From positions 1-64,000 of the forward strand of contig CAIPYE010000014.1 of the NCBI GenBank assembly GCA_903869265.1: DNA of 64,000 nt, in the 5' to 3' direction. A model generated the notes under the pieces. It was not told where the DNA came from. It saw nothing but the letters and a program-made list of their open reading frames with translations, and did no database searches. The translations under genes were made by a program, and so were the position numbers. This document shows positions 4,507 to 55,810 of the stretch, piece by piece (within the stretch, counting starts at the first letter, position 1; each line of letters begins with the position of its first letter). This DNA is from an uncultured delta proteobacterium. Lineage in GTDB: Bacteria > Desulfobacterota > Desulfobulbia > Desulfobulbales > Desulfurivibrionaceae.

Positions 4507-6051
4507 TTATGCCGAATCGTTGTTAAGCTTCTTGTTGTATCTTTCAATTATTTCGTCAATTCGGTGCTTCTGATCATCGGTGCATTTACTGTGTGTTTTT
4601 AGCTTTAGTAACCACTTTTTGTCGGATGGCCTATATTCAGAACGGCCAAATCTAAATTTATGCAGAATTTCATTTATGTCGTCTTCTCGAAGCCATTCAA
4701 TATGCTTAACAAAAATATCCCATGTGCTCCAGCATTTACCAATTTCATTTGGTGAGGACCATCTCAATATCCCAATTATATGATCAAGGCGTTCGTCAAA
4801 AACTTCACTTTCTACTCCGGGCGAAATTTTTAATATATTCAAGAAAGGTTTGTCGGCAGTGTAAAAATCCCAGACACCATCTGATTTGGCACAAGATTTA
4901 ACCACTGCTTTGTGGAAGGCTTCTTTCGTGTCGAAATTTGGGTAGCCGTCTTCATTAACCAGCGATATTACTGATCCAATAATTTGATCAATTTCCCTGT
5001 AAGATATTCTGCTTTCAGGTGATAACAGCTCCCCGCCAAATTCTTTATAGAGAATTTGGTTCTCTAGTACTTCAACCAGAGCTTTAACAGCTTGATTTCT
5101 AGAATCTTTTGTGTTGAATGATTTCAGGAGTTCTTTGCGGGATAGCGTCTTTTTATTAATAATCTTACTCGCGATATTCCTTAGCCTATCTTCAATGTTT
5201 GAATGTTCAACAAAAAATCTTTTAGTAGATTTCTTAAACTCTTTAAATTCATCATGCAAGTCATTAAGAAATTCACCTATATCTGCTTTTATTATATATA
5301 TATTTTTGTTTTCAAATAAGAGTTTTGATTCACTTAAAACACTATCCTTAGTGCTTGAGTGAACAACCATATACGCTGGGGGCTTTTCTTCACCCATATG
5401 GGCATAAACTTCATCATAGATGAAGCCAATATTGGGGTCTGTCAAGCTGTATCCAACAAAAATTGGGGATGCTTCTGAAAAGAGAGTATATATTTTTCTA
5501 TTTAGATACGTGTCTTCCCGTTGAAATTCAAAATATTGGCTCTGCGTTACAACAATGCTACTTGGTCTGCCTACATCTCCATGAATTTTAAATATATTTC
5601 TACCAGTATGAGAAACCTGTGGTCTTTGATCTTTCCTTACGATAACATTTGCTAGCCCATCAAAAATTTCTTCTAATAAATTGTCCCAATTTGTTGTAAC
5701 CAACATATTAGGCGCAAATTCCATAAATCTTTTTTTCCAGTCTGGTTCAGATTTTTCTATTTTTAATGCAATCAGTGACTCGGCGACGACAGCATTAAAT
5801 TTAACATCTGTATATCCTTTATTAATTCGCGCAAATGAACACAATAGCTCTGCTGCTTTTAGTGGATTAGAAACATCGATATCCATTTCATATTCAATTG
5901 TTTCCTTAACTTTTGTCAGCACCGCTTCCCAACTACCATAGCCAAAATTATAAGAAAAACCGGACCCAACCCATAAAAAATAGTTCTCCGAAAAAACGGA
6001 GGATAACAAATTTTGTTTTGCATTATCACTTAATTGATCAATACAGCTCAT
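4507..6051 (-). CDS. SIR2-domain protein, probable NAD-degrading defence protein
   Basis: The 514-residue protein opens with a SIR2-like domain: VGSGFS (about residues 28-33, NAD binding), TTNWDNLLEEIF (119-130), KIHGDV with the candidate catalytic His157, and GYSLTDPNI (200-208). The C-terminal ~280 residues are not recognised. SIR2 proteins of this layout (DSR-like, ThsA-like) deplete NAD+ on phage infection. The gene is far more AT-rich than gpsA and gyrA on either side and stands alone, which suggests horizontal acquisition into a housekeeping locus. No Thoeris TIR partner, Argonaute or HerA gene is adjacent. Defence activity is inferred; the SIR2 fold call is firm. Confidence 0.82.
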   Translation of the reverse strand: MSCIDQLSDNAKQNLLSSVFSENYFLWVGSGFSYNFGYGSWEAVLTKVKETIEYEMDIDVSNPLKAAELLCSFARINKGYTDVKFNAVVAESLIALKIEKSEPDWKKRFMEFAPNMLVTTNWDNLLEEIFDGLANVIVRKDQRPQVSHTGRNIFKIHGDVGRPSSIVVTQSQYFEFQREDTYLNRKIYTLFSEASPIFVGYSLTDPNIGFIYDEVYAHMGEEKPPAYMVVHSSTKDSVLSESKLLFENKNIYIIKADIGEFLNDLHDEFKEFKKSTKRFFVEHSNIEDRLRNIASKIINKKTLSRKELLKSFNTKDSRNQAVKALVEVLENQILYKEFGGELLSPESRISYREIDQIIGSVISLVNEDGYPNFDTKEAFHKAVVKSCAKSDGVWDFYTADKPFLNILKISPGVESEVFDERLDHIIGILRWSSPNEIGKCWSTWDIFVKHIEWLREDDINEILHKFRFGRSEYRPSDKKWLLKLKTHSKCTDDQKHRIDEIIERYNKKLNNDSA

Positions 6052-50634: not shown

Positions 50635-50661
50635 CAAGTCAGCATTTGGCTCGGACAGGTG

Positions 50662-50732
50662 CTTCGACAGGCTCAGCACGAGCGGACTTTTTTACGTTAT
50701 GAGAACAACCGTTCGCCCTGAGCCTGTCGAAG
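50662..50732. repeat. Dispersed inverted repeat (CTTCGACAGGCTCAG type)
   Basis: CTTCGACAGGCTCAGCACG followed by AGCGG (50662-50685) and CCGTTCGCC followed by CTGAGCCTGTCGAAG (50709-50732) are near-perfect inverted copies. This element is widely scattered in many bacterial genomes. It lies past the fusion gene stop and may terminate transcription. Confidence 0.8.
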
Positions 50733-50750
50733 GGCCGTTGTTAGCAACCT

Positions 50751-51254
50751 CTAGTGTTCCGGGCAGAACAACTCCTTAATACCCTCCGGCAGCTCTTCCG
50801 GCAAGACCCCTATCTCTTTGGCAAAGGCGTCCAGTTCCTCCCTGGTGCAGTTGAGGCAGGACTGCCGCAGCCCTGCCCGGACCTCGTCTGCCTCCTGACG
50901 CAGGAAACAGCGCAAGGCTTCGGCAATCTCGAGGCGCAGCGCTGTCTCTATTTCCAACTCCTGTCGGACGCAGAACTTTCCCAGCCGTTCCCAATTGAAG
51001 ATGCACCGTTTCAACCCCCGGTAGATGGTGGCGTCCCGGTTTTCCGGGTTGAGATCCCGGAGCAGGATTTCCCGGTAACGGGCCACAGCCTGTTGGCGCA
51101 AGCGATCCAGCTCTTTTTGGCTCAAGGTGAGTTGCGGCCCTGCCGGATCTTCGCAGAGGTAATACAGGGAGCTGTGGAAGGCAATTTCCGGAATCTCCCC
51201 GGAATGACGAACAATGAGCAGCTCTTCCGCGAGCAAGCTTTCGGTCTCGGTCAT
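50751..51254 (-). CDS. Conserved unknown protein (167 aa)
   Basis: From the ATG at 51254 (AAAGGTT upstream) the protein reads MTETESLLAEELLIVRHSGEIPEIAFHSSLYYLCEDP. The middle is helical and basic (QKELDRLRQQAVARYREILLRDLNPENRDATIYRGLKR). The C-terminal part has Cys residues (CFLRQEAD, SCLNCTREELDAF, LFCPEH) that could bind a metal. Neighbours are the fusion gene (convergent) and the FlgO-like locus (divergent). Function unknown. Confidence 0.7.
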   Translation of the reverse strand: MTETESLLAEELLIVRHSGEIPEIAFHSSLYYLCEDPAGPQLTLSQKELDRLRQQAVARYREILLRDLNPENRDATIYRGLKRCIFNWERLGKFCVRQELEIETALRLEIAEALRCFLRQEADEVRAGLRQSCLNCTREELDAFAKEIGVLPEELPEGIKELFCPEH

Positions 51255-51562
51255 GGCCCAACCTTTAAGCGAAGGGCGGAAAAAAATTATGCCAAGAGGC
51301 GTTTTGATTTTCCGCAAGATATAGCTTCTCTGGCCGGCCAACATACCACATGTTGTTGCCAGTAAGCGAACCGGGCTCCGGCAGGCACGATCCGGACACC
51401 CAGAAAGCCTCTATCCTCTCAATCTGCAACGCATTTTTTGTTAAAGACAAAGTGTTATCCAACCGATGATTAAAGACAAACCGGGAACTCTTTTCCGCTT
51501 AGGGCGTCCGACGGCACGGCGGCGGTGAACCGGTGCCACATAATAAAGGAGAACGGCGACAT
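51255..51562. other. Divergent promoter region before the FlgO-like locus
   Basis: These 308 bases contain no convincing gene; only short, weak frames are seen. Promoters for the conserved unknown (minus) and the FlgO-like gene (plus) must lie here. No sigma-54 or other specific promoter motif was recognised. Confidence 0.4.
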
Positions 51563-52264
51563 ATGCAATTCCCAAGGAAACAACAAAGCCCTGGCTGGCC
51601 GACCCCTTCTTCCCTGGCGAAAATAGCGGTGCTGGTTCTGCTGGTTTTGCCGGGCCAGGCCGCGGCCTTCTGGCCCTTCAGCCAGGAGGCGTCCCCGAAA
51701 CCAAAAGTGGAAGCCGTTGCCCCGGCGGCGCCAGCGCTCACGGTAAACGAAGCCGCTGCCTTGCGCACCGAGATACAGGGGTTGGCCAACGAGCTGTTCC
51801 GCAATCTGGCGGATGCTGACCCGGAAAACGGTGATCTGGGCAAGGGTGTGCTGGTCTGCACCTTTGTCGAGCTGAAAAAATTGTCCCGCACCTCGTCATT
51901 GGGGCGGTATGTGGCGGAACAGTTGATGAACGAGATGCAGCAGCACCATTACGAGGTGGTGGAGATTCGGAAAAGCCAAGCGATCCTGCTCCAGGAAAAG
52001 CGCGGCGAGTTCGGCCTTTCCCGCAACCCAACCGAGGTCAGCCAGGCGGTGGCGGTGGGAGCAATGCTCACCGGCACCTACACTCCCAGTAAGGACAGCA
52101 TTGTCATCAACGCCAGGATCATCGACAACCGGAGCGCCAAGCTCCTCTCCTCGGCCACAGCGATCATTCCGAGAAATCAACTGGCCGAGCAGCTGCTGGC
52201 TGACACCGCTTCGGTTCGGGAGGCAAAACCGGAGCCGCTCTATCTGAAAAAATTGGAATTATGA
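51563..52264 (+). CDS. FlgO-domain exported protein, first of three
   Basis: The 233-residue protein has a signal peptide or anchor (LAKIAVLVLLVLPGQAAAF, about residues 19-37) and a Pro/Ala-rich linker. The rest matches the FlgO family: LANELFRNLADADPENGDLGKGVLVCTFVELKKLSRTSSLGRYVAEQLMNEMQ, then EVVEIRKSQAILLQ and VGAMLTGTYTPSKDSIVINARIIDN. FlgO is an outer-membrane motility lipoprotein in Vibrio, yet no flagellar gene is present here. A hairpin (52346-52375) follows. It opens a four-gene same-strand set to 55754. Confidence 0.85.
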   Translation: MQFPRKQQSPGWPTPSSLAKIAVLVLLVLPGQAAAFWPFSQEASPKPKVEAVAPAAPALTVNEAAALRTEIQGLANELFRNLADADPENGDLGKGVLVCTFVELKKLSRTSSLGRYVAEQLMNEMQQHHYEVVEIRKSQAILLQEKRGEFGLSRNPTEVSQAVAVGAMLTGTYTPSKDSIVINARIIDNRSAKLLSSATAIIPRNQLAEQLLADTASVREAKPEPLYLKKLEL

Positions 52265-52455: not shown

Positions 52456-53226
52456 ATGAATAAGGGAAGGAGAGAAGCAATACTCTGTTGCTTGGGGCTG
52501 GTTCTGTTTGCCGGGACGGCGTGTGTGAGTGCTAAGTCTGAAAGCAAGATGACGGATGCCACCTATACGCCAGCGGCAGAAGCTCCGAGTCAGGCTGCTG
52601 CCCCCGGCATAGTGGCTAATGTGCCGAAAGACAAGGGCAGCGTTCCGCCTCCGATGGAAGTGGTGCGCAGGGTGCCGACCAAATACAACGTTTATCAGTA
52701 CATGCCGGACACCTCGAAAACCCTGGGCACGGAAATTCTCCTGTCGGAAATGTCCAAGGAAGTGGCCGGGAAGGTGTTCTATGAGATGCAGGCGGAAGGC
52801 GAAAAGAATTTCACCGCCAAGATCGCGGTGGTCAATGCCGTACCCCTTTCCGATCTCAAGCGTGACACCGAGTTTGGTCGGGTCATGGGCGAATACCTGC
52901 TTACCGATTTGGCGGACCGCGGCCTCAAGGTGACAGAGCTTCGCCTGGGCAAGGACATCACCATTCTTCCCCAGACCGGAGAGTTCATCCTTTCCCAGAA
53001 CATCGGCGAGCTGGCCAACAAAACCCCAGAACTCGAGTATGTTGTGGTGACCACCTTTGCCAATACCCGCAAGACCCTGATCGTCCAAGGCCGTCTGGTG
53101 CGGCTTGCCGATGGGGCGGTCAAGACCTCCTGGCGTTATTCGATGCCGCTCAACCGGGAACTGCTTGGCCTGTTCCAGCCTGCGGAAGCACCCTATAAAA
53201 TTGCCGTGAAGGGCATTGGCCGGTAA
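52456..53226 (+). CDS. FlgO-domain exported protein, second of three
   Basis: The 256-residue protein has an N-terminal hydrophobic signal (ILCCLGLVLFAGTACVSA) with a possible lipobox Cys, and an Ala/Pro-rich linker. A FlgO-like domain follows: TAKIAVVNAVPLSDLKRDTEFGRVMGEYLLTDLADRGLKVTELRLGKDITILPQTGEF and YVVVTTFANTRKTLIVQGRLVRLADG. A GRREAILCC start is typical of secreted proteins. The gene is 14 bases before the third member of the set, so the two are surely co-transcribed. Confidence 0.82.
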   Translation: MNKGRREAILCCLGLVLFAGTACVSAKSESKMTDATYTPAAEAPSQAAAPGIVANVPKDKGSVPPPMEVVRRVPTKYNVYQYMPDTSKTLGTEILLSEMSKEVAGKVFYEMQAEGEKNFTAKIAVVNAVPLSDLKRDTEFGRVMGEYLLTDLADRGLKVTELRLGKDITILPQTGEFILSQNIGELANKTPELEYVVVTTFANTRKTLIVQGRLVRLADGAVKTSWRYSMPLNRELLGLFQPAEAPYKIAVKGIGR

Positions 53227-53240
53227 GAGGAGCATCGCGC

Positions 53241-53762
53241 ATGAAGATATCCGGAGCCGTGAAAAAAATCGTTTTTACGACGCAGGTTGTGCTGCTTGTG
53301 CTACTCTGCGCCTTCTGGACAACCGGGGCCAGGGCCACGGAAAAAGAGGATGAGGGCGTGGGCGGCCCGAAAAACTATTCCTCGCTCACCGGCTTGGTGG
53401 CCATGGTTGGCAGCGACGCCATGGAGCACCTGCATGGTTTTTTTGCCGCCGAGCCGGTGGCGATAGAGCCTTTTATCGTGCTCAGTGAATTTTCCACCAG
53501 GCAGAGGATTTCCCTGCTTGGCGCGACCCTGGCCGAACAAATGGCTGCGGTGATCAGCAATGAGTCGCTGGCCGTGTGGCGGCCCGCGACGGCAGGAGAG
53601 AATGAACAGCGGGTTTCCGGGGTTCTTCAGGAAGTGGACGGGTATCTGCGCATCCATATTCTCGCGGCCAATACCAGGGGCGATCGCCGTTCCTATGTGG
53701 TGAATGTCGAGATGTCGGAACCCATTTATCGGGCGCTCCATAGCTATGTCTATATGCAGTAA
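53241..53762 (+). CDS. FlgO-like exported protein, third of three
   Basis: The 173-residue protein has a signal peptide (VVLLVLLCAFWTTGARA) and a shorter domain with weak likeness to the FlgO fold: VLSEFSTRQRISLLGATLAEQMAAVISNESLAVWRP, followed by GVLQEVDGYLRIHILAANTRGDRRSYVVNVEMSEPIY. The pattern of helix plus NTRG strand parallels that of the second member. It lies 14 bases after that gene and 33 bases before the large membrane protein. Confidence 0.7.
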   Translation: MKISGAVKKIVFTTQVVLLVLLCAFWTTGARATEKEDEGVGGPKNYSSLTGLVAMVGSDAMEHLHGFFAAEPVAIEPFIVLSEFSTRQRISLLGATLAEQMAAVISNESLAVWRPATAGENEQRVSGVLQEVDGYLRIHILAANTRGDRRSYVVNVEMSEPIYRALHSYVYMQ

Positions 53763-53795: not shown

Positions 53796-55754
53796 ATGGC
53801 AGAAGAAAAATCAAGTCTTGAAATAGACGACTGGCTTACCGATCTGGCGGAAGACAAGCCTGCCCCGGCGGAAGAATCTCCGGGCGAGCTGGATCAGTCC
53901 GACATCGATTCCCTGCTGGGCGGAGGAGCGGCGGCCAGTGGCCCGTCTCCTGATGATGGTGGAGAGCTGGATCAGTCCGATATCGACGCCCTTCTGGGCG
54001 GTGGAGGCTCTGCTGCCCCAGCTTCCGCCGCAGGCGGAGGTGGCGAGGGTTTCGCCGAGCTTGACCAATCCGATATCGATTCCCTGCTTGGCGGCGGGGA
54101 AGGGCCTGCGGTAGCGGCTGCGCCTGCGGCAAGCGATGATTTTGATTTGGACCAGTCGGATATTGATGGTCTTTTTGCCAGCGCGGGAGACAAAAAAGAC
54201 TCGGGCGAACCAGCTCTGGCCGATGGTATGGGCGCTCCCAGCAAGGATGATCTGGACAGTCTTTTTTCCGATCTCGGCGGCGAAGATTCAAGTCAACCGG
54301 AAACGGTGACTTTTGCCGAAGTGGCCCAGGACGGAGGCGGAAAAGCGGGGACTGCCGCCCCAGGAGAAGATAGTTTCAGTTTGCCGGATGATGGCGGGTT
54401 CAATGAGGATGAGTTTGATTTTGGCGACCTGCCCGATATTCCCGATGAAGCAACAAATGCCAGTGGCAAAGCGCCGCAGGGAGGCATGGGCGAAGAAGAT
54501 ATTTTTGCTTCGGCCTCTCCAGCTGCCGCTATGCCGGATTTTCTCGCGGAGGCCACTATGGATAACAGTCGGGGAAAGCCCCCTGCTTCGGGCTCAGATC
54601 ACCCCTTTGCCCCGCCACCTAAAGCCGGGAAGACAAAAGGCATGGCTGTCGCGGCCTTTTGCCTCATCCTGCTGCTGGGGGGCGGGGGGTATTTTTACAT
54701 GAAAAACAAGAAGGGCGTGATGCCGGTTCCCGTGGCGCCGGTCGTCCAGGAGAAGCCCGCCGCCGCCCCGGAAGGGCCGCCGGTTGTCGCCGCGCCCGTT
54801 GGCCCGCCCAATGTGGCGCCGGTGGCCAGCGAGTCCCGCTGGCGCATGACAAAACCCAACGAGGCTCTGCCCATCGAGCTTTCCGGCTCGGATGAAAACA
54901 ACGATCCCCTGAAATTTGAAATTGTGACCCCCCCCAAGTTCGGCAGGCTCTCCGGCGATCTGCCCAAGGTCACCTATCTGCCCAACAAGGATTTCCCGGG
55001 GGAAGACAGCTTTGAATTCCGCGTTTCCGACGGGCAGCTGACCAGCGCCCCGGCCAAGGCTGTGGTCATGGGTCCGGAGGAAGTCAAGCCGGTGGTGGCG
55101 GAAGCCGCTGCGCCGCCGGAGGAGAAACCGGTGGTGGCGGCGAAGAATATGCACCTCAAGACCCTGAGCACCGCGCCGCTCACCATTAACTGGAAAAAGA
55201 TTTGGGCTGGTGCCAACACGGAGCCTTTTGACGCCAAGGTGTCGGTGGAAATTCTCGGCGGGCCGCCCCTGCGTGGCGCCCTGCACCGTCTCGACCGCAG
55301 TCGGCATCTCTATGAGCCGAACAGGTATTTCGGCGGCAAGGAGGAGGTGCGGTACCGGTTCAAGGCAGCAGGGGTTTTCTCCAAGACCGCGAAACTGACC
55401 ATCACGGTTAAGCCCAACGACAAGCCCCCCGTACTGGCCCTGAGACCGGTGGCTGATTCGTACAAGGTGGGGGAAAGCGTGGTGCTTGACGCAGGGCTTA
55501 CCAAAGATGATTCTCCTGGCGGCGTGCGGTTTAACTGGGAGCAGGTGGCTGGCCCGTCGGTGCAGATGGAGAAGCTCCATGGGGAAGGTTCGGCGGTGTC
55601 CTTTGTGGTGCCCTCTTCCTTTCGCTCGGAGCAGAAAACAAGGATCGTCATCCGGGTGACAGCCACGGACCCAGGCGGCCAGCGGACAAGCAAAGAGATC
55701 GGCATTACCCCTGTATCCAAGCGGCAAACAGCCCTGTGGGGGATTTCCGAATAA
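53796..55754 (+). CDS. Membrane protein with repeated LDQSDIDSLL peptides and periplasmic Ig-like domains
   Basis: The 652-residue protein has an acidic cytoplasmic part with near-exact copies of LDQSDIDSLLGGG at residues 32-44, 58-70 and 89-101, a variant at 118-127 (LDQSDIDGLF) and a degenerate SKDDLDSLF at 149-157. A single membrane helix (about 283-302) follows. The periplasmic part has a cadherin-like/Ig-like domain (VTYLPNKDFPGEDSFEFRVSDG), a middle beta domain and a PKD-like end (GVRFNWEQVAGPSVQM). LDQSDIDSLL resembles the FliM N-terminal CheY-binding peptide LSQDEIDALL, so these may be binding sites for a response-regulator-type protein. A terminator follows. Confidence 0.85.
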   Translation: MAEEKSSLEIDDWLTDLAEDKPAPAEESPGELDQSDIDSLLGGGAAASGPSPDDGGELDQSDIDALLGGGGSAAPASAAGGGGEGFAELDQSDIDSLLGGGEGPAVAAAPAASDDFDLDQSDIDGLFASAGDKKDSGEPALADGMGAPSKDDLDSLFSDLGGEDSSQPETVTFAEVAQDGGGKAGTAAPGEDSFSLPDDGGFNEDEFDFGDLPDIPDEATNASGKAPQGGMGEEDIFASASPAAAMPDFLAEATMDNSRGKPPASGSDHPFAPPPKAGKTKGMAVAAFCLILLLGGGGYFYMKNKKGVMPVPVAPVVQEKPAAAPEGPPVVAAPVGPPNVAPVASESRWRMTKPNEALPIELSGSDENNDPLKFEIVTPPKFGRLSGDLPKVTYLPNKDFPGEDSFEFRVSDGQLTSAPAKAVVMGPEEVKPVVAEAAAPPEEKPVVAAKNMHLKTLSTAPLTINWKKIWAGANTEPFDAKVSVEILGGPPLRGALHRLDRSRHLYEPNRYFGGKEEVRYRFKAAGVFSKTAKLTITVKPNDKPPVLALRPVADSYKVGESVVLDAGLTKDDSPGGVRFNWEQVAGPSVQMEKLHGEGSAVSFVVPSSFRSEQKTRIVIRVTATDPGGQRTSKEIGITPVSKRQTALWGISE

Positions 55755-55780: not shown

Positions 55781-55810
55781 GGCCTGCTTGCACAAAGCGG
55801 GCCTTTTTTT
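55781..55810 (+). terminator. Rho-independent terminator of the FlgO-like locus
   Basis: GGCCTGCTT pairs with AAGCGGGCC (one G-U pair) around GCACA, followed by seven T residues. It closes the 51563-55754 operon-like set, 26 bases past the last stop. Confidence 0.93.

Follow-up and report, generated by a model that had tools for sequence, protein, structure and literature searches.

The window, that is, the whole stretch of 64,000 nucleotides analysed here, belongs to a genome of 2.8 Mb in 17 contigs, whose nearest named relatives are Desulfobulbaceae/Desulfurivibrio MAGs. It contains a four-gene operon in the order flgO1-flgO2-orf3-rep (Table 1), with rep as the last gene. An alternative start of flgO1, a GTG at 51533, is possible. 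FlgO1 and FlgO2 scored 122.7 and 86.4 bits against the FlgO family PF17680 (Pfam cut-off 22.6), and FlgO1 matched the FlgO-domain chains 9yfg/9yds in the PDB (E 3.5e-11). Judged by its LFAGTAC segment, FlgO2 is a probable lipoprotein, and 32 of 53 flgO2 orthologues carry a lipobox-like site. The original prediction placed three FlgO-like proteins upstream of rep, which applied to these two but not to the third. Orf3 lacked the FlgO domain in Pfam, had no family match in Pfam or NCBIfam and retrieved nothing when its profile was searched against PDB sequences. Its AlphaFold model (pLDDT 82) was matched best by the C-terminal domain of LpoB in Foldseek (probability 1.00); the model thus appears to share the LpoB/TolB-N/GNA1162 fold, although identity is only about 10% and the TM-score only 0.43-0.53. 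Beyond partial tandem-95 and PKD-like matches, NCBIfam offered no family for the proteins of the operon.

Table 1. Coordinates of the operon, its neighbour and the features of Rep in the window.
Feature	Position	Strand	Basis or remark
DUF7826 protein gene	50751-51344	-	divergent from operon
flgO1, exported FlgO-domain protein, 233 aa from ATG	51563..52264	+	Pfam FlgO E=1.1e-35
flgO2, FlgO-domain protein	52456..53226	+	Pfam FlgO E=1.9e-24
orf3, exported protein, 173 aa, LpoB/TolB-N-like fold (model)	53241..53762	+	AlphaFold and Foldseek
rep, membrane protein: FliM_N-like peptide array and periplasmic cadherin-like domains	53796..55754	+	ATG start, 652 aa
Motif 1, LDQSDIDSLL, aa 32-41	53889..53918	+	predicted helix 34-41
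Motif 2, LDQSDIDALL, aa 58-67	53967..53996	+	predicted helix 60-67
Motif 3, LDQSDIDSLL, aa 89-98	54060..54089	+	predicted helix 91-98
Motif 4, LDQSDIDGLF, aa 118-127	54147..54176	+	predicted helix 121-124
Motif 5, degenerate, PSKDDLDSLF, aa 148-157	54237..54266	+	sequence
Single transmembrane helix, about aa 283-301	54642..54698	+	predicted helix 284-301; hydrophobic peak at 283
Periplasmic domain 1, Big_9/cadherin-like, aa 339-423	54810..55064	+	Pfam Big_9 E=6e-15; pLDDT >90
Periplasmic domain 2, cadherin-like, about aa 450-540	55143..55415	+	structure model
Periplasmic domain 3, cadherin/PKD-like, about aa 550-640	55443..55715	+	Pfam Cadherin_4, weak PKD; structure model
Terminator-like stem-loop, then T-run	55786..55802	+	consensus scan only

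Rep agrees with the original prediction of a one-helix membrane protein with five repeats, comprising four copies of LDQSDID[SAG]L[LF] and a degenerate fifth. Three near-identical peptides had been named; all are present, but the second reads DALL, not DSLL. The first 282 residues are acidic and predicted to be mostly disordered. AlphaFold modelling with 48 orthologues gave low confidence throughout this tail save for local rises at short helices, and the helices predicted there are the motifs themselves, an arrangement that fits a peptide that folds on binding. Two further short peptides are conserved in the tail (window 53823-54446), namely IDDWLxDL (aa 10-17) and F-x-F-x-D-x-PDIPDE (around aa 200-217), and are likely to be additional docking sites. 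The part beyond the membrane helix was modelled as three tandem, confident beta-sandwiches that matched cadherin repeats in a structure search, in keeping with the Ig-like and PKD-like periplasmic domains expected originally. The terminator anticipated at the end of the operon has its counterpart in a stem-loop found by consensus scan. In Pfam searches, the middle (CheC-like) and SpoA C-terminal domains of FliM were absent from Rep; a true FliM is encoded elsewhere in the genome.

Two other observations were made in the window. The intergenic region at 50640-50760 contains a palindromic repeat of the type CTTCGACAGGCTCAG...CTGAGCCTGTCGAAG, spotted by eye. Between gpsA-like and gyrA-like genes lies a SIR2-like gene (4510-6051, minus strand) with a GC3 of 0.30 against about 0.7 nearby; its product matches anti-phage ThsA/PDC-S25 models, and it is probably a horizontally acquired defence gene.

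The Rep peptides and the CheY contacts of FliM

A strict motif was defined as Q-x-x-[IVLM]-D-x-L-[LF]. The Rep tail of the window contains four copies (0.0015 expected by shuffling), and the 48 aligned orthologue tails contain 213, with 1-8 per protein (0.14 in shuffled tails). Every one of these 48 tails carries at least one copy, as the original prediction required of relatives. The peptide is thus kept across orthologues, with linkers and copy number variable; the counterpart of motif 5 reads PSQEEMDxLF. When 58 genomes were searched for the strict pattern at the DNA level, matches fell in rep genes throughout and at one site elsewhere, and the reversed-pattern control gave 0. The single outside match, in G055, falls within an unrelated frame, MNPENPPEATLDQADIDALIRSY, and was attributed to chance. 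The shuffling and reversed-pattern controls exclude chance for the Rep motifs.

The CheY contacts in the E. coli FliM-CheY complex are D3, S4/D4, L6, Q8, I11, D12, L14 and D16, to which a Vibrio model based on 1F4V adds L15 (PMC3774744, Table 3). Rep conserves the equivalents of L6, Q8, I11, D12, L14 and L15. In a survey anchored on I-D-x-L-[LF] alone (n=197 copies), the Q8 position was Gln in 193 and the L6 position Leu, Ile or Val in 176. The positions matching FliM 9, 10 and 13 vary and are the loosest in the core; position 10, acidic in FliM, is often Asn in Rep, with [DE] only partly kept. Within the core, the residues kept in Rep are, by alignment, those that touch CheY in FliM, and most others drift, except for position 7, which has no listed contact and is mostly Asp. 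At the level of sequence, then, the likeness to FliM can be followed residue by residue and is specific to the positions that contact CheY, which bears out the original naming of the FliM CheY-binding motif as the nearest known peptide.

The window genome is flagellated. It has fliM and fliN, and flhA, flhF, flhG, fliA and cheY were recognised by sequence on a contig other than that of the window; the earlier remark that no flagellar genes are visible is therefore correct for the window but not for the genome. The N-terminus of its FliM is MEQILSQDEVDALLKG. The CheY of the flagellar cluster adjoins fliA, flhF and flhG and keeps the FliM-binding residues I95, Y106, V108, K109, F111, K119 and K122. 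The numbering of the E. coli CheY reference sequence used for this comparison agrees with the table of PMC3774744. The pocket is intact in six relatives as well (7/7 with the window genome), and among four genomes with the other FliM type (see below) no pocket-type CheY was found within about 19 kb of fliM. The CheY of the chemotaxis cluster on contig 6 was set aside as a partner, its pocket residues being lost (K119I, V108K).

A profile built from 50 motifs was searched against all PDB sequences. The FliM N-terminus ranked second (E=0.039), which supports the reading of the Rep peptides as FliM_N-type. The top match was a segment, EPSQADLDALLS, of the polyketide-synthase fusion construct 2n5d (E=0.002), which we take to be, probably, a docking helix. 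Since this segment outscored FliM, peptides of this type may dock onto other partners, and the pattern also occurs outside CheY ligands. Convergence could accordingly account for the resemblance to FliM_N, with the motif binding a different partner (FliN, a polar organiser, a further receiver domain or some unknown protein), and receiver domains are indeed abundant in the genome (22 matches to one CheY at E<=1e-10). We consider this explanation credible but unlikely, as the conservation sits on the CheY-contact positions and the system occurs beside a canonical FliM and an E. coli-like CheY.

One further protein near cheY was noted. It is encoded in the flagellar cluster by the gene following cheY, at positions 173371-174243 of contig C4 in genome G000 (L143), and has one helix and an acidic cytoplasmic tail, in which the segment NWGEDWESAF loosely resembles the conserved DDWLDDL start of Rep. 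This protein may be FliL-like.

Conservation of the operon and association with FliM type

In a scan of named genome contigs from Desulfobulbales and neighbours, the order flgO1-flgO2-orf3-rep was found at 49 of 55 loci, most exceptions stopping at a contig edge or representing missed calls. The same order recurred nearly without exception in a separate set of loci from relatives, which overlaps the scan in many genomes. The four genes thus co-occur as originally proposed; one genome (G022) has flgO1, flgO2 and rep but no orf3. Among cultivated relatives, Desulfurivibrio sp. AMeS2 (L124) possesses the operon. Outside the order, orf3 had no match among 394 genomes of the phylum, and for these genomes we discarded the idea that it had spread to other orders. 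Plasmid records returned Ig-like matches only.

The operon was not found together with genes for chemotaxis or type IV pili, a co-localisation that the original prediction had proposed to look for. The operon is flanked by the DUF7826 gene upstream and by rpe and an M16 peptidase gene downstream, and this site is ancestral and vertically inherited. The distance of the operon from flagellar and chemotaxis genes counts against docking of CheY by Rep. The DUF7826 gene stands beside the operon in 18 examined related loci from several families; it is possibly a functional neighbour or simply part of the ancestral synteny.

The association with FliM was assessed in 160 genomes of the order that were at least 90% complete, with FliM divided into two score classes. 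orf3 was present in 44 of 48 genomes with a high-class FliM, in none of 77 with a low-class FliM and in 1 of 35 without FliM; conversely, 44 of the 45 orf3-bearing genomes have FliM, and they are phylogenetically clustered. The Fisher P of 1.6e-29 for this association is inflated and does not constitute independent evidence. Given one ancestral locus and vertical descent, the association is close to a single phylogenetic event and largely a clade-level contrast, and descent alone could yield most of the pattern. All 16 high-class FliMs sampled read LSQDEVDALL. Among 24 low-class FliMs sampled, the N-terminus was readable in 23; Q8 was replaced by Lys or Arg in all of these and D12 by Ala, Ser or Thr in 22. 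In genomes with type-B FliM (e.g. L174-L197), N-termini of the form ILSKxEIADLL were seen, without the CheY-contacting Gln and Asp, which suggests that this half of the order has a different CheY-switch interaction.

Three genomes with a high-class FliM (G031, G035 and G041) have neither orf3 nor a clear rep operon, so that the operon is not essential for flagella; in G022, the fourth high-class genome of this kind, orf3 alone is missing. Cases of loss are few. orf3 is missing from FliM-less G054, and both FliM and orf3 appear to be missing from G166, in families that otherwise have them. In G175, a 93%-complete draft in which no FliM was found, orf3 is kept and the rep frame is broken. The frameshift (L121/L157) falls after the membrane helix but ahead of periplasmic domain 1 and may reflect a pseudogene or a sequencing error.

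FlgO copies typically number 4, 1 and 0 per genome in the high-class, low-class and FliM-less groups, respectively, with exceptions, and two of the four copies are often found no more than about 20 kb from fliM. In genome G000 (C4:197228-199347; L144), a second cluster comprising two FlgO proteins and a third lipoprotein is located approximately 13 kb from fliM, and several relatives show a similar spacing.

That FlgO copy number follows the flagellum type would also be expected if the operon encoded a structural variant of a flagellar ring or disk, comparable to the H-ring, whose peptides serve to bring in or position the C-ring or export gear and take no part in signalling. Two FlgO proteins, a protein of LpoB-like fold and a membrane protein with cadherin domains would suit such an envelope scaffold, and in Vibrio FlgO is an H-ring lipoprotein (PMC7990780). 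We regard a purely structural role as distinctly improbable, however, since a second FlgO pair is already present near fliM and the occurrence of 1-8 peptides with CheY-contact residues would be left unexplained. A non-flagellar, clade-specific envelope structure that is co-inherited with one flagellum type, such as a regulator of peptidoglycan synthases, would accord with the descent from a single locus, with LpoB, itself a peptidoglycan-synthase regulator, as best match of the Orf3 fold and with the orf3 gene of G175, broken rep frame aside, but is very hard to reconcile with a motif that matches FliM, with FlgO counts that drop to none or to weak matches in nearly all FliM-less genomes and with the absence of orf3 from G054 and apparently, together with FliM, from G166. 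Because the system accompanies flagella, there is no need to invoke gliding or an envelope structure unconnected with them, as considered in the original prediction.

Proposed function and comparison with known systems

On balance, we slightly favour the view that the operon encodes a flagellum-associated envelope assembly in which the Rep tail docks CheY~P via its FliM_N-type peptides. FlgO1, FlgO2 and Orf3 would occupy the periplasm or be located at the outer membrane. Rep would span the inner membrane once and reach these proteins with its three cadherin-like domains, exposing the long, acidic, disordered tail and its several peptides on the cytoplasmic side. An orientation with the tail inside is suggested by the lack of an N-terminal signal peptide, the acidity of the tail (mean net charge -75) and the cadherin-type domains; the charge flanking the membrane helix (2.5 vs 1.8 K+R) favours it only mildly. 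Each peptide would form a short helix that docks onto phosphorylated CheY in its alpha4-beta5-alpha5 groove. Many weak sites on a flexible tail might then raise the local level of CheY~P, buffer it or pass it on to FliM, so that the assembly would concentrate or buffer CheY~P near the motor, in competition or cooperation with FliM.

In the known cases, CheY~P diffuses to the motor, where each FliM (or FliY) captures it with a single short peptide, and CheZ, whose C-terminus carries a similar CheY-binding peptide, uses it to remove CheY~P. If the proposed function is correct, Rep provides an additional means by which CheY~P is retained, buffered or supplied close to the motor. We tentatively suggest, without committing to it, that the system represents a new class of accessory to the flagellum, a multivalent array in the inner membrane that docks CheY~P, connects by its periplasmic cadherin-like domains with the FlgO/LpoB-fold proteins in the outer envelope and sets the local supply of CheY~P at the motor; such an array may couple this supply to the state of the envelope or motor. 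The flagellum-linked operon spans much of a bacterial order, and the Rep motifs would provide a natural library of more than 200 variants of a CheY-binding peptide.

The FliM_N peptide and the FlgO domain are already known. In the literature searched, we found no description of the flgO1-flgO2-orf3-rep operon, nor of a separate transmembrane protein in a conserved FlgO operon that bears as many as eight FliM_N-like peptides. With FliM_N, and also the N-terminus of FliY, the Rep peptides share the contact residues L-x-Q-x-x-I-D-x-L-L and the predicted form of a short helix in a flexible segment. They differ in being located off the C-ring protein, membrane-anchored and present in 1-8 copies per tail, in a protein that has neither the FliM middle nor the SpoA domain and in which position 10 is not strictly acidic. 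The Vibrio H-ring (FlgO, FlgP, FlgT) and the Campylobacter disks likewise combine FlgO-family exported proteins, flagellated genomes and a probable envelope scaffold, whereas the Rep operon stands away from flagellar genes and includes a third protein of LpoB-like fold; the portions of the sources consulted report no transmembrane cadherin-domain protein with a CheY-peptide tail for these structures. Campylobacter PflB, which has TPR repeats instead of cadherin-like domains and for which the consulted portion of the source describes no CheY-peptide tail, resembles the proposed Rep assembly in that this single-helix disk protein is an inner-membrane-anchored flagellar scaffold.
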